A stretch of DNA of 24,890 nt, taken from IMG/VR virus record IMGVR_UViG_3300007734_000506, positions 1 through 24,890 of that record, one strand, 5' to 3'. This DNA is from a virus. A program made the translations under genes and the position numbers. The notes under the pieces are model-generated. The model was not told the origin of the DNA and made no database searches. It saw only the letters and a list, made by a program, of their open reading frames with translations. Positions 1-4,933 of the stretch are shown piece by piece (position 1 is the stretch's first letter; the number at the start of each line of letters is the position of its first letter).

Positions 1-1924
1 TCTTCACCCGCTTGTCAAACTCTTTTGAAGTTGCATCATCTTGATTTGGCAGGTTCTTGGTCAGTGCCGCCATATTTTTGGCCTGAATCTCTTGGGGCAT
101 CAACTGAGCCTCAATTGCCAACTTCTGTGCTTCTGCACGATTTTGTTCAGCTTGAGTCGTATTGACAGCAATCTGAGCCTGTGCAGCTTGCATAGCCAAC
201 TGTTGTTGCATCTGAGCCATTTGCTCTGCTTGCGGATTAGGCTGGCTCATCTTGTCCAACTGATCCATCAATTCATAGCGGTTGGTCAATGAAGAATTAG
301 CCAAAACACCTTTCAGAATCAATGGCAACACAGGAGTGTTGGGGCCAAGGGTCTGGAGCAAGCCAATGAACATCTGTTGTTCATGCTCACGAGCAATGAT
401 GCCCAGAGTAGCCGTAGGAATGAAGGTCATGTCCACAGAGGGGTAACGCTCTGGGTCAAACTGCATGTACCTGAAAGCCGCCTTCTGGATAAAGGGAATC
501 AGGAAGTCTTCTTGGAAGTTCACCAGAGTACGCTTGTACTTCTTGATGATGGTGGCGACTGCCATAGACATACCGCCTTGCCCCATGTCTCTAGCACCAG
601 CACTGACCATGCCCTGAGAATCCAAAGTTCCCGTGGATTGCAGGAGCATACGCTCGAAATCCTTGGCAGTGGCTAGGTTGTTGCCATCAGTCTGACCAAA
701 CTTGAAGGGATACAGAATCTCTGAAGGTGCGCCATTGGTAAGAATCGCCTTCCCAGGCTTGACTTCAAACTTAGCACCACGAGGCAAACGGGTTGCATCC
801 ATTGCAATCATGGGGCTAGTGGTCAGCGCCAATGAATCCAAGTGAGAGCGAATCTGAGCATCAATAGCCTTTTGCATATTGAAGGCTTTTTCCACTGTGC
901 CACGACCCAAAAGACGATTGGGAACAGTGTCATCTTGGTAGGTCAGAACAGGACGATCCTTCATCATGTAAGGATTTGCCTCTGCTTTTAGCAATTGTCC
1001 ATCGTTGGCAATTACGACAATGGCCTCAACCATGTCTGAATATTCTTCAGCAGCGGAACTCTCAGGGAATAACTCGACAATATTCTTGTTTTCCTCAAGG
1101 TTCTCTAGGTATTCACGGGGAACCAGGCCATAATAAGTCAGCAAAAGTACCTTATCGTCCTGATATTGGGTAACTTCTTGGGTTGGCTCTAAGTCAGTAT
1201 CTTCATAGGTGGGCGTAATGTCTACTTTTCGATAGATTCCACGCTCAATGCCTTCAACAATCTTATGAATACTTATGTATTTCTCAATTGCGACCCCCAT
1301 GCAATCATCAACTGAGGTTCCATTGGGGTCAAAAAGAAAGTTTTTGGGGTTAATAGGGGAAATTCTGACCGAAATCCTGTCTTTTTCCACTACGCCAATT
1401 GCGGCTTGGCCCATTTGCCCAGGAATCGGCTGAGTAGAGGGCACAAACTGCTTTTCAGTCTTAACGACAATCTCGCCAATGCCTGTGCCGTAAATTTCTG
1501 CCATCAACTCAATGGCATCAATGGATTTGCGTATCTTGTCCCGCTTGAAATCCTCCATCAACTGGGCTTTGATGATGCCCACATCAATGGGGTTGTTGTT
1601 CACATCCCGAATATCATCTTGAATGTCAAAGAATTCGCCCTGACCAAAGATAGCTTCCATAATCTCAGCATGGCGAGTCTCTACGGCTTGTTGGGTAGCA
1701 GGGGTTACGATGCGTGAACGCTCAGACTCACGGGTTTTGTCTTCAGATGCCCACTGACCACGAAAGATTCGCTCGTATTCCAGATAATCAGGCAGGTAGT
1801 TGGTATCTCTCCAATCACGCCAGCGGTTGCAATGGTCAACAACAAAATCAGTCAGTTCCTTATCAGCCTCAGTCGGCTCATAAAACTCATTTTGCTCTAG
1901 CTTTTCTTGCTTATCTGTTGCCAT
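1..1924 (-). CDS. Portal (head-tail connector) protein, 3' end cut by window edge
   Basis: The frame is open from the ATG at 1924 to the left edge, at least 641 codons, so the C-terminus is missing. The dodecameric portal forms the DNA gate at the capsid vertex and the docking site for terminase and tail. I recognise the protein by its length, its place directly after terL, and its podoviral portal-like character: N-terminal acidic helical segment (MATDKQEKLEQ...), a central part rich in charged beta strands, and a Gln/Ala-rich helical C-terminal part (AQMQQQLAVANTQAQIAV), as in the barrel helices of P22-like portals. The start overlaps the terL stop by one base (TAATG), indicating translational coupling. 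No sharp catalytic motif exists for this family, so the call rests on context and overall character. Confidence 0.85.
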   Translation of the reverse strand, partial: MATDKQEKLEQNEFYEPTEADKELTDFVVDHCNRWRDWRDTNYLPDYLEYERIFRGQWASEDKTRESERSRIVTPATQQAVETRHAEIMEAIFGQGEFFDIQDDIRDVNNNPIDVGIIKAQLMEDFKRDKIRKSIDAIELMAEIYGTGIGEIVVKTEKQFVPSTQPIPGQMGQAAIGVVEKDRISVRISPINPKNFLFDPNGTSVDDCMGVAIEKYISIHKIVEGIERGIYRKVDITPTYEDTDLEPTQEVTQYQDDKVLLLTYYGLVPREYLENLEENKNIVELFPESSAAEEYSDMVEAIVVIANDGQLLKAEANPYMMKDRPVLTYQDDTVPNRLLGRGTVEKAFNMQKAIDAQIRSHLDSLALTTSPMIAMDATRLPRGAKFEVKPGKAILTNGAPSEILYPFKFGQTDGNNLATAKDFERMLLQSTGTLDSQGMVSAGARDMGQGGMSMAVATIIKKYKRTLVNFQEDFLIPFIQKAAFRYMQFDPERYPSVDMTFIPTATLGIIAREHEQQMFIGLLQTLGPNTPVLPLILKGVLANSSLTNRYELMDQLDKMSQPNPQAEQMAQMQQQLAMQAAQAQIAVNTTQAEQNRAEAQKLAIEAQLMPQEIQAKNMAALTKNLPNQDDATSKEFDKRVK

Positions 1925-3183
1925 TAAACCCCCGATATGATGTCTACAGGCTCCCACTCTTCATCTTCTTCGGCTTCAAAGTAAGATGTTACAGCCAATT
2001 GATCGATATAACTCAAAGCATCGGGTAAGTCATCATGTACGCCATTGGCAGGAAACATCAAGAGTTGATCGGTAAATGTGTCCCAATCTTCTTCAGAGTT
2101 CAGCACAATTCGCCCATGCTCAAACCGCCCTTGGAGACTCCAGATGATTCTGTCTGTCTTTTTCCTGTTGCCATGCGTTAGGTCAACTATGTGCGAATAT
2201 ACATTATTTTTCCGCATCAGGTCACTGAGGTAGGGCAAAACAGCATTTTTAAGCGCCCCACGCTCAATTCCCACCGAAATTGGCCTGTAATCCCGCATCT
2301 TCATCAGGATTTTGGCAGCAGTTTCCCGAATGTCCCATCTGCCATGATCAATCTCTTTGACAAACCACTTCCCATCATCAGTGACCTTGACCACTGCAAT
2401 GGCGCTCTCATCTAGCCTTTTCTTTGCGTTAGCAGCTTGTTTAGCCACCTCTTCAAATCCTGCCAAGTCGATTGCAATGAAGTAACTACCATACTCAGGT
2501 TCCACACCATATTTGATCCAATCTTCTTTAAAAACATCGCTTCCTGCGTTGTCAAAGGACGCTAGATATTCCTGCTTGAAAGCAAAGGATGACAGCGTTT
2601 TCTTGGCAGACTCAATCTCAGTTGGGTCTATCAATGGGTTATCTTGGGTTGTAAAGTGCCAAGACTTCCAATCAGGATCAGACCCCTCTTGGCCCATCTT
2701 GAACAGATCATAGAACCAGTTGCGGCCCTTGGGAGTGCCAATGAATATGGCTCTGCCCTTTTTGTCTGACAAAGAAGCCCTGATGACCTGCTCCCAGGCT
2801 TCAGGCTTAATGTCCGCAACCTCGTCTAGCACCGCATAGGTAAGGGACACACCCCGCAGAGTATCTGGTCTATCAGCGCCACGAACATAAATCTTTGCAC
2901 CATTTATCATGGTGATGTCCATATTGTTGATGTGACTAGCCTGGATAACATCCCTGCCAATCTCCATCAAAACATCCCAGATAATTTGCCTAGCTTGTCC
3001 ATTGGTAGGCGCAACATAGAGAACTGCGCTACCTGCTGGGCAACGCAATGCTTCAATAATTAGCGTAGTAGCCGCTAACCTAGACTTGCCACAGCGCCGA
3101 CCAGCAGCCACAACCTTAAACCTTGTTTTGTCAGTAAAGACAGTTTGTTGCCAAGGAAGGAGTGAGAAGTTAAGGTCAGACAT
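1924..3183 (-). CDS. terL: Terminase large subunit
   Basis: This 419-residue protein is the ATP-driven DNA-packaging motor and headful or cos nuclease. The N-terminal ATPase shows Walker A at residues 26-34 (AAGRRCGKS), Walker B near 117-121 (YAVLDE, with catalytic Glu after Asp) and a coupling motif GTPKGRNWFYDL at 149-160. The RNase H-like nuclease domain begins near 234, with acidic residues in FIAIDLAG (about 235-242), VGIERG and the C-terminal HDDLPDAL. Length is normal for the family. It starts 8 bases inside the end of the small-subunit gene and its stop shares a base with the portal start, so the three genes form one translationally coupled packaging operon read leftwards. Confidence 0.95.
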   Translation of the reverse strand: MSDLNFSLLPWQQTVFTDKTRFKVVAAGRRCGKSRLAATTLIIEALRCPAGSAVLYVAPTNGQARQIIWDVLMEIGRDVIQASHINNMDITMINGAKIYVRGADRPDTLRGVSLTYAVLDEVADIKPEAWEQVIRASLSDKKGRAIFIGTPKGRNWFYDLFKMGQEGSDPDWKSWHFTTQDNPLIDPTEIESAKKTLSSFAFKQEYLASFDNAGSDVFKEDWIKYGVEPEYGSYFIAIDLAGFEEVAKQAANAKKRLDESAIAVVKVTDDGKWFVKEIDHGRWDIRETAAKILMKMRDYRPISVGIERGALKNAVLPYLSDLMRKNNVYSHIVDLTHGNRKKTDRIIWSLQGRFEHGRIVLNSEEDWDTFTDQLLMFPANGVHDDLPDALSYIDQLAVTSYFEAEEDEEWEPVDIISGV

Positions 3184-3571
3184 TTTTTGGTTCTATATCT
3201 TCAGCATCTACAGTATTTTCGCCAATCGTAACTCCGCCAATGCCGGAGATAGTGATGTTTACAGCAGAACGCTGTTTGCCTTCTTTCTCAAACAGACTGA
3301 CGGGAAGCATCCGATCCATACAGAGTTTGAGCATAGCCGCCTGTGCAGGGTGATCGTCATCCATTGCAATCTGAATTGCTTTGTGGACAACATTGGAACC
3401 AGCACTGTTTATCAGGAGGTCTTTGAGTTCTTTGATGCGCTGAACTTCAGTCTTTGGCAGGAGAGCCGCAGGTCTATCAGCATAGGTAGCCATAGTGAAC
3501 TTCTTGTTCACAGCACCCTTAGGGCGACCTTTTTTCTTTAGGTTGTTTGGCAAGGCATCAATCACATTCAT
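3176..3571 (-). CDS. terS: Probable terminase small subunit
   Basis: The 131-residue protein lies immediately upstream of terL and overlaps it by 8 bases, the usual place of the DNA-recognition subunit. The N-terminus carries a basic KKKGRPKGAVNKK stretch (about residues 12-24), as found in the DUF5681-type N-terminus of many phage small terminases. The middle (about 45-90) is predicted helical and could form the oligomer core, and the C-terminus is acidic (GENTVDAEDIEP), suitable for contacting the large subunit. The family is assigned by position and this N-terminal signature; there is no catalytic motif to confirm it. Confidence 0.7.
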   Translation of the reverse strand: MNVIDALPNNLKKKGRPKGAVNKKFTMATYADRPAALLPKTEVQRIKELKDLLINSAGSNVVHKAIQIAMDDDHPAQAAMLKLCMDRMLPVSLFEKEGKQRSAVNITISGIGGVTIGENTVDAEDIEPKNV

Positions 3572-3600
3572 ACTTTACCCACTAATGGAAGTTTGGGCAG

Positions 3601-3629
3601 ACTATACATTGTTTGACAAGTGGGGTAAA
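3601..3629 (-). promoter_or_regulatory. Candidate sigma-70 promoter of the terminase operon
   Basis: On the minus strand TTTACC (3629-3624) and TATAGT (3606-3601) are separated by exactly 17 bases. The -10 matches consensus at five of six positions; the -35 is weak. The -35 lies inside a GGGTTTACCC copy of the recurrent motif, so a protein bound to that motif would directly block or help polymerase. The spacing to the terS start (3571) leaves a leader of about 25 bases. Confidence 0.45.
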
Positions 3630-4040
3630 CCCTAGTACATTCTTCACGGGGCCATCACCCAGCCCTCCATGCGGTGGAACCGACCAATTGGGATAATCGT
3701 AGCGAGTCAGGCGACTCTTAAGTAGCCCCCCATCATTCGGGATGAATCATGGCAAGGTGAACAGGAAACGTAGTCTGAGCCACTTGTCTGACAAACAAGA
3801 TACTGGTTAGCTTAGATAAACAAGAGGTTCACTTCTGAAAAGAAGACTAACCCTCACGGGTGCCTGAACTCGTCTATACCCTACCACCACCCGTCTGTAG
3901 CACCTACTCCCTTCCCAACAAAAGCTAATCATTGCTATAACAAACCTTGATTTGACTTCTCGTGTGCGGAGGGGGCACCACAAAATCTCTTACGCCACAC
4001 ACACCCCCTCCCCCCCATGTTTGTTGCGCCACTGCAACAC

Positions 4041-4149
4041 AGGGTAAACCCTATTAGGGTAAACCCTGAATTAATTAACCGACCGGTCGGTCGGGTTATG
4101 CATGTCGTCTAAGCACCTTTTCAATGACACTTTACGGGTAAACCCTAAT
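4041..4149. repeat. Cluster of palindromes: three GGGTAAACCC sites, TTAATTAA, CCGACCGGTCGG
   Basis: AGGGTAAACCCTA (4041-4053) and TAGGGTAAACCCT (4055-4067) are spaced 15 bases apart. They are followed by TTAATTAA (4071-4078), the perfect 12-base palindrome CCGACCGGTCGG (4079-4090), and a third ACGGGTAAACCCTAA copy (4134-4148). A fourth copy lies 400 bases to the left at 3623. Such tight clustering of symmetric sites is typical of operators, iterons or packaging/cos elements. Which of these it is cannot be decided from the sequence. Confidence 0.6.
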
Positions 4150-4181
4150 CCGAATCGTTTCATCATGTGGAATATTTTAGA

Positions 4182-4303
4182 GTTACATTTCATGTTGTGA
4201 GATATTATATAGGGGTTATTACTATAAGGGTTTTCATGTTGCTGATTTTCTTGTTTAAAATCAACGATGTATAAAAACTGGCACGATTCTATTATGCTAT
4301 ATA
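4182..4303 (+). promoter_or_regulatory. AT-rich promoter region for the rightward operon (weak)
   Basis: Two candidate promoters precede the first rightward gene. One is GTTACA (4182-4187), 18 bases, TATATA (4206-4211). The other is an extended -10-like TGcTATATA (4295-4303) with no good -35. A promoter is expected here because the flanking operons diverge, but neither candidate is strong. A phage-specific or activated promoter is equally possible. Confidence 0.25.
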
Positions 4304-4354
4304 TGTGAGAGCGTCGAAAAACTCTCAGTCATCAACCATCGAAAGGCGTTCAAA

Positions 4355-4933
4355 ATGACAAGCAACATCACCAGGGAGCAATGGCTCTCCAAGGCCACCG
4401 AAGAACTCAGGAAACTATTTAAACAGCATGGGGAGGCCATCCCTGAGCGCATCAGGTCATCTTGCGGTTTCCCTTCAAAGTCAGCCCTCAGCGCCAAGAA
4501 TCGGCGCATTGGAGAATGCTGGTCATCACGGGCGAGCGCTGACAGCCACGCTGAGATTTTCATCTCGCCCACCATCTCAGACAGTTCGCGGGTCTTGGAC
4601 ATTCTCGCCCATGAGTTGATCCACGCGGTTCACCCTGGTGACGGGCACGGCAAGAAGTTCGGGCGCACGGCTCGTGCCATCGGCTTAGAAGGCAAGCTGA
4701 CAGCCACCACGGCTGGCCCTGAATTCTTGGCCTGGGCTGAACCCGTGCTGGCTCGCCTTGGCGCTTACCCTCACGCTGACCTTATCCCTTCAAACGCTCA
4801 AAAGAAACAGACCACGCGCCTGTTGAAATGCGTCTGCCGTGACTGTGGTTATACAGTTCGGGTTGCTGGCAAGTGGCTGAATGAGATGGGCGCACCTCAC
4901 TGCCCTGACCATGGCGAGATGCAAAGGGTTTAA
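4355..4933 (+). CDS. SprT-like zinc metalloprotease-fold protein
   Basis: This 192-residue protein has the zinc-metalloprotease signature HELIH at 86-90 (His86, Glu87, His90) and a further His at 98 (GDGHGKKF), the usual third ligand of SprT/Spartan-like domains. A C-terminal zinc-ribbon-like part follows: Cys159/161/164 and the HCPDH group at 182-186. Conserved-looking RIGECWSS and EIFISPT segments precede the active site. Cellular Spartan degrades DNA-protein crosslinks; SprT-like proteins are also found in phages, where the role is not established. Start: ATG 4355 follows the leader TCGAAAGGCGTTCAAAATG. It is the first gene of the rightward small-gene operon, a place where early host-interaction genes are common. 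All expected metal ligands are intact. Confidence 0.88.
   Translation: MTSNITREQWLSKATEELRKLFKQHGEAIPERIRSSCGFPSKSALSAKNRRIGECWSSRASADSHAEIFISPTISDSSRVLDILAHELIHAVHPGDGHGKKFGRTARAIGLEGKLTATTAGPEFLAWAEPVLARLGAYPHADLIPSNAQKKQTTRLLKCVCRDCGYTVRVAGKWLNEMGAPHCPDHGEMQRV

Follow-up and report, generated by a model that had tools for sequence, protein, structure and literature searches.

Gene organization of the locus

By the window we mean the whole stretch of DNA that was analysed, a virus record from a freshwater phage, 24,890 bases in length. Genes for a portal protein (P22/SU10-type), the terminase large subunit (TerL) and a small-terminase candidate are all read leftward. TerL (1924-3183, − strand) matched Pfam Terminase_6N and PHROG 2. 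The small-terminase candidate (terS; 3176-3571, − strand, 131 aa) matched nothing in Pfam or PHROG by itself and was assigned from its place directly before TerL and its conservation in relatives. The first rightward gene, at 4355-4933 (+ strand), matched Pfam SprT-like.

These divergent genes are separated by an interval, 3572-4354, that the initial annotation had described as free of genes. We likewise found no convincing gene between terS and the SprT-like gene; in the list of open reading frames, those wholly inside the interval were all of 58 aa or less. The interval falls into three parts: a structured RNA gene from 3613 to about 3946, then a conserved block at about 3947-4016 and, ahead of the first early gene, a variable stretch in which operator-like palindromes lie (4042-4145).

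A structured RNA family beside terS

On comparative evidence, positions 3646-3862 (+ strand) are a member of a previously undescribed family of structured non-coding RNAs, which we name RNA-A. The initial comparison drew on TerL relatives in IMG/VR (80 kept of 387), most of which carried a conserved non-coding stretch behind a promoter-like motif. An internal 28-mer of RNA-A was matched exactly in at least 119 stretches, and a second, 3'-side pattern scan brought the number of loci to 220. Some loci are duplicate contigs: before the 3'-side scan, 172 loci corresponded to 134 distinct contexts. RNA-A occurred at the same place in more than 100 uncultured phage sequences. Its core is 217 nt long in the window and about 185-250 nt across the family. 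It is supported by a covariance model (R1) and by covariation, and its strand by the asymmetry of G-U and A-C pairs.

After removal of near-copies, 43 diverse members were aligned, the lowest identity to the window being 43%. The resulting fold has 37 pairs in seven helices (P1, a pseudoknot, P2, P3, P4, P5 and P6). Long-range helices came from RNAalifold; P1 was added, and P5 and P6 were extended, by eye. Standard pairs made up 94.8% of 1570 cells, and 19 of the 37 pairs were compensated, that is, changed on both sides. The covariation score was 0.391, compared to 0.180 (SD 0.008) for shuffled controls and at most 0.097 for slid partners. A second alignment, of 30 members trimmed to RNA-A, gave the same result (covariation score 0.411). 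Because the fold was partly derived from the same alignment, one control (control b) favours it, and matches outside the sample are therefore important. Eight loci outside the model scored 133-139 bits (E 4e-37 to 1.3e-35), and almost every pair was intact in them; the window, itself part of model R1, scored 167.5 bits (E 1.4e-44).

The best-supported helices were P3, P5 and P6. P3 (3707-3712/3773-3778) encloses P4 (3718-3727/3756-3766), the two together spanning 3707-3778; compensatory changes were seen in 5 of 6 P3 pairs, with U-G to G-U exchanges among the P3 changes, and in 3 of 7 P4 pairs. The variable hairpin P5 (3779-3808), where the window row is poorly aligned, showed such changes in 5 of 6 pairs and P6 (3832-3845) in 3 of 4. 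P1 (3649-3665; 3649-3652/3662-3665) showed GC/CG swaps at its last pair and GGGAT/ATCCC variants. The P1 loop holds the 5' strand of the pseudoknot (CACCC, 3656-3660), which pairs with GGGTG (3858-3862) 200 nt away; the consensus is N-ACCC in the loop with GGGT-N at the 3' end. The outer pseudoknot pair was maintained in 41 of 43 members as CG, GU, AU or GC. A local 3' hairpin was considered as an alternative and rejected: it extends in 16 of 43 members and never alone. P2 pairs GAACC (3677-3681) with GGTTC (3826-3830), or GAGCC with GGCTC in other members, and was paired in 100% of cells. In both P2 and the pseudoknot most pairs are invariant, each helix resting on one covarying pair.

Across all pairs of the fold G-U accounted for 11.3% of cells and A-C for 2.1%, and RNA-A therefore lies on the + strand. 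Long unpaired stretches are invariant: AUGCGGU, CCGACCAA.U.GGAUAA.C, AGUA and GAUAAAC.AGAGG. Rather than an antisense region, they resemble a surface to which a protein or RNA partner could bind. The presumed transcript continues in a 3' tail (3863-3946, + strand), in which GTCTGTAGCACC is conserved in close relatives and is followed by a variable stretch, with a putative 3' end at about 3946.

That RNA-A is a genuine structured RNA is in our judgement almost certain. A structured RNA had been among the candidates of the initial annotation, which had proposed compensatory changes in relatives as the check; these were found above controls and support it strongly. With sequence conservation, neither being visible to that annotation, they place the region far beyond chance. 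The stability of the hairpins that it had described was not unusual (z = -0.71 for 3646-3862, -0.79 for 3940-4020 and -0.64 for 4060-4110). We rejected thermodynamic stability as evidence, as 41 of 200 shuffles of 3646-3862 fold as well. A three-way junction suggested at 3827-3869 does exist as a local minimum-energy fold (z = -2.1), but it is not conserved. Only the window and one close relative can form its closing helix, GTTCA/TGAAC, in full, and in the conserved fold GGTTC pairs with GAACC 150 nt upstream (P2).

Promoters and operator-like palindromes

The best promoter in the region by consensus scan was TTGACA-17-TACATT (3613-3641, + strand; 10/12). A promoter of at least 9/12 ending 6-14 bases before P1 was found in 36 of the 43 diverse members compared to 4% of shuffled sequences; a few promoters, in one clade, scored poorly. 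The near-invariant promoter-like motif TTGACAAGTGGGGTAAACCC, upstream of terS, is common to TerL relatives and was present in all RNA-bearing close relatives. Comparison among members shows RNA-A with a predicted start at P1, just after a sigma-70-type promoter.

The spacer between the -35 and -10 elements contains an operator-like palindrome (3623-3632) that differs by lineage (GGGTAAACCC, as in the window, GGGTAATCCC or AGAATCAGATTCT). Repressor binding here would place the RNA-A promoter under repressor control. A putative divergent promoter into terS, TTTACC-17-TATAGT (3629-3601, − strand; 9/12 in the consensus scan), overlaps both the RNA-A promoter and its palindrome. The distance from terS to the RNA promoter varied from about 40 to 510 bp among close relatives (L003, L005, L025 and others).

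The palindrome cluster of the initial annotation was readily recovered: GGGTAAACCC occurs four times, at 3623, 4042, 4057 and 4136, along with an inverted repeat at 4074-4099. The stretch that holds the latter three copies and the inverted repeat (4042-4145) is likely an early-promoter control region.

A conserved terminase-linked block

Between RNA-A and these palindromes lies a block (3947-4016) with the pattern ATTTGRC-TTCTC.GTG..GGAGG..CACCACAAA....CCCCCTCCCCCCC. It is conserved across the TerL family, and 206 of 248 loci had a single copy of it per contig, whether RNA-A was present or not; where RNA-A is absent, it lies directly upstream of terS. The initial annotation had also offered a cos or pac site for the interval, which is plausible only for this separate block; it is a better candidate than RNA-A. 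Contig ends fell within 150 bp of the block 26 times on the right and never on the left, at scattered bases that assembly breaks could explain. The block has a G-rich arm as well as CCCCCTCCCCCCC, and the arms seemingly co-vary in some relatives (in L069, GGGGCGGT with ACCGCCCC).

Exchange and loss of RNA-A

Behind the shared promoter, phages with near-identical TerL carry other sequences in place of RNA-A, namely blocks C, D or E or the leader of block B. When the presence of RNA-A was mapped on the TerL tree, 14 changes were required, at least 8 of them forced by supported branches. One pair of phages with identical TerL differed, one carrying RNA-A and the other the unrelated block C. RNA-A was also absent from L069, L071 and L079, although their TerL is 93% identical to that of the window; portal identity, where covered (L069 and L071), was 94-96%. 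For L071 the values were 93% for TerL, 96% for portal and only 55% for TerS. TerS was likewise only about 55% identical to the window's across the three, which suggests a joint exchange of terS and the RNA interval in these phages. RNA-A can thus be replaced or missing while terminase and portal stay nearly the same, which marks it as accessory and not as an obligatory packaging RNA.

RNA-A beside a second terminase

Of 209 loci with enough flank, 207 had a divergent terS or terL within 1.5 kb of RNA-A. The remaining two led to a further group (L270, L280 and L300-L305) with a different terminase. In this group about 20 bp separate the start of RNA-A from a 507-aa terminase large subunit, which is followed by a P22-type portal, and no terS homologue was recognised beside RNA-A. 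The two large subunits both match the broad PHROG 2 but gave no significant BLASTP alignment (best E 0.002 over 58 aa). In both groups the order of RNA-A and a C-rich stretch is identical. At each locus RNA-A was present in a single copy, with constant orientation and promoter position.

Distribution and relation to known RNAs

With permissive filters, Rfam 15 gave only chance-level matches in the window and in seven other loci; in 11 further loci nothing matched at the gathering threshold. RNA-A was not found by DNA similarity in GenBank phages and plasmids, nor was the exact 28-mer in 84,980 genomes. A covariance-model search with strict filters and no positive control did not find it in 399 bacterial genomes, which represent the order of the one bacterial bin holding a TerL relative. 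It was absent from four annotated phage records, three of them with the terminases nearest to that of L270. The metagenome bin with the TerL relative is betaproteobacterial; the contig concerned, L251, is 4.7 kb long, with TerL 85% identical and the conserved block present but RNA-A absent. L251 gives a weak hint of a betaproteobacterial host; we rejected the assignment as too weak, resting as it does on one TerL relative in a bin without RNA-A.

To our knowledge, only a small number of structured phage RNAs lack an assigned job, and the most familiar of these are large and associated with tRNA islands. Closest in kind to RNA-A are GOLLD and ROOL, being pseudoknotted, phage-encoded, of orphan function and recognised by covariation (PMC12286853). 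They are much larger, GOLLD members often exceeding 800 nt, and both lie near tRNA islands (PMC12286853), whereas RNA-A has a core of about 220 nt and adjoins terminase genes. Their Rfam models had no match in the window and seven other loci, and, unlike the tRNA-island setting, the RNA-A loci tested contained no tRNA or tmRNA by cloverleaf or tmRNA detection.

The phi29 pRNA, also a phage RNA, was considered since RNA-A adjoins packaging genes. RNA-A differs in fold and has no Rfam match to it; a phi29-type RNA would be expected always to accompany its motor, and RNA-A is dispensable with a nearly identical one. The put RNA of HK022, which is about 70 nt long with two stem-loops (PMC9378689), resembles RNA-A by analogy, as a structured RNA produced straight from a phage promoter and directed to early genes; it differs from the about 220 nt and seven helices with pseudoknot of RNA-A. 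Polynucleobacter-1 RNA (RF01718), a freshwater Burkholderiales RNA, and the phage c4 antisense RNA (RF01695), both in Rfam and both listed in PMC2864571, were not matched in the Rfam search of the window and seven other loci. The same paper lists, without an Rfam number, the Burkholderiales-1 motif, a candidate structured RNA of Burkholderiales; the main text of PMC2864571 does not mention terminase.

No description of a terminase-linked structured RNA of this kind was found in the open-access literature searched. Because of this, the lack of an Rfam 15 match and the larger size of GOLLD and ROOL, we rate RNA-A as a new class among the orphan structured phage RNAs. It is compact, common in uncultured freshwater phages, well determined in fold and fixed in position beside terminase genes, and its structure, partner and phenotype are therefore directly testable.

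Possible functions of RNA-A

Comparison among the loci shows a family of pseudoknotted RNAs, predicted from the + strand, that start after a promoter and adjoin terminase genes; we infer that RNA-A is transcribed in vivo. RNA-A would be an independent gene, read away from terS and ending before the conserved terminase-linked block. A phage repressor would bind the promoter palindrome, and RNA-A would be made upon derepression. It would then act in trans with a macromolecular partner, a mode that we favour because of the accessory pattern together with the long unpaired stretches that do not vary. An accessory job is the most likely one, since the cassette is swapped or lost while TerL is unchanged; host takeover, counter-defence and competition with other phages are examples. 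For this account as a whole, an operator-controlled RNA-A gene whose product is trans-acting and accessory, we judge the chances to be even; for action in trans as an accessory factor, taken by itself, they are slightly short of even. Constant position by terminase genes, even a dissimilar one, exceeds what an accessory cassette needs and may reflect packaging or late-gene control. Action on packaging or host defence would be a new role for a phage RNA.

RNA-A might instead be a cis-acting leader of the rightward early operon that modifies RNA polymerase or switches between pseudoknot and local hairpin. Transcription would, by analogy with HK022 put RNA, read through a terminator-like stretch and on into the SprT operon. 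In HK022, putL is located immediately after an early promoter and works without a phage protein (PMC9378689), and RNA-A likewise begins at the predicted transcription start and is directed toward early genes; its GGGTN can form the pseudoknot or, in the 16 of 43 members noted above, an equally extended local hairpin. We consider both the leader and its read-through unlikely, as the downstream conserved block and early region exist without RNA-A, RNA-A is three times the size of put, and no canonical terminator was found in the window. A packaging-RNA-like role, as raised by the initial annotation, is more doubtful still. An obligatory form conflicts with the phages that lack RNA-A despite near-identical TerL and portal, with an identical TerL that functions with either RNA-A or block C, and with the lack of an Rfam pRNA match. 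An auxiliary form, such as a helper for the start of terminase on the nearby cos/pac block, is where the idea retains some footing: in two groups with dissimilar terminases RNA-A keeps the same position, flanked by packaging genes and the C-rich block, and the L270 group has no recognised terS homologue beside it.

Membership in a selfish mobile element with the terS-to-block interval as its target would fit a site that is a hot spot, where other cassettes carry an HNH endonuclease ORF or other RNA-like blocks. It is nevertheless very unlikely, as RNA-A in the window is unaccompanied by an ORF, is single-copy at each locus and always keeps its orientation and promoter position. Scarcely credible is conservation at the DNA level only, as a cos/pac site, origin or cruciform with no RNA. 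The region adjoins terS, and the block downstream makes a good cos/pac candidate in its own right, but that block is retained when RNA-A is missing. Conserved wobble pairs, including the exchanges in P3, are RNA-specific, and the promoter sits exactly at the RNA-A 5' end. It is a long shot that RNA-A and the unrelated candidate RNA blocks form an interchangeable class of RNAs that assist terminase in selecting phage DNA or in starting on it, in the two groups with dissimilar terminases; if true, such helpers would be a second natural route for RNA to participate in DNA packaging.

Other RNA-like blocks at the site

Candidate RNA-like blocks unrelated in sequence to RNA-A take its place on the − strand: C from L028:4492 downward, D from L055:3495 downward, and E in L021 past the HNH ORF. 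We rejected homology of RNA-A with blocks C, D and E, as the covariance model gave no match. C and E resemble RNA-A in that the loop of a 5' hairpin could pair with the 3' end (GCTACCC/GGGTAGC in C; GGCAGTC/GACTGCC in E).

Block B (L028:4473-4819 and L021:4519-5103, − strand) is a structured leader that follows the shared promoter and precedes an ORF for either an HNH endonuclease or a 74-aa basic protein. The loop of its hairpin ATCTGTT[CTAGCC]AGAT is complementary to GGCTAG within a large terminator-like hairpin. This kissing pair covaries, since CGCGTC with GACGCG and CGCGCC with GGCGCG occur in other relatives, and block B looks like a regulated attenuator.
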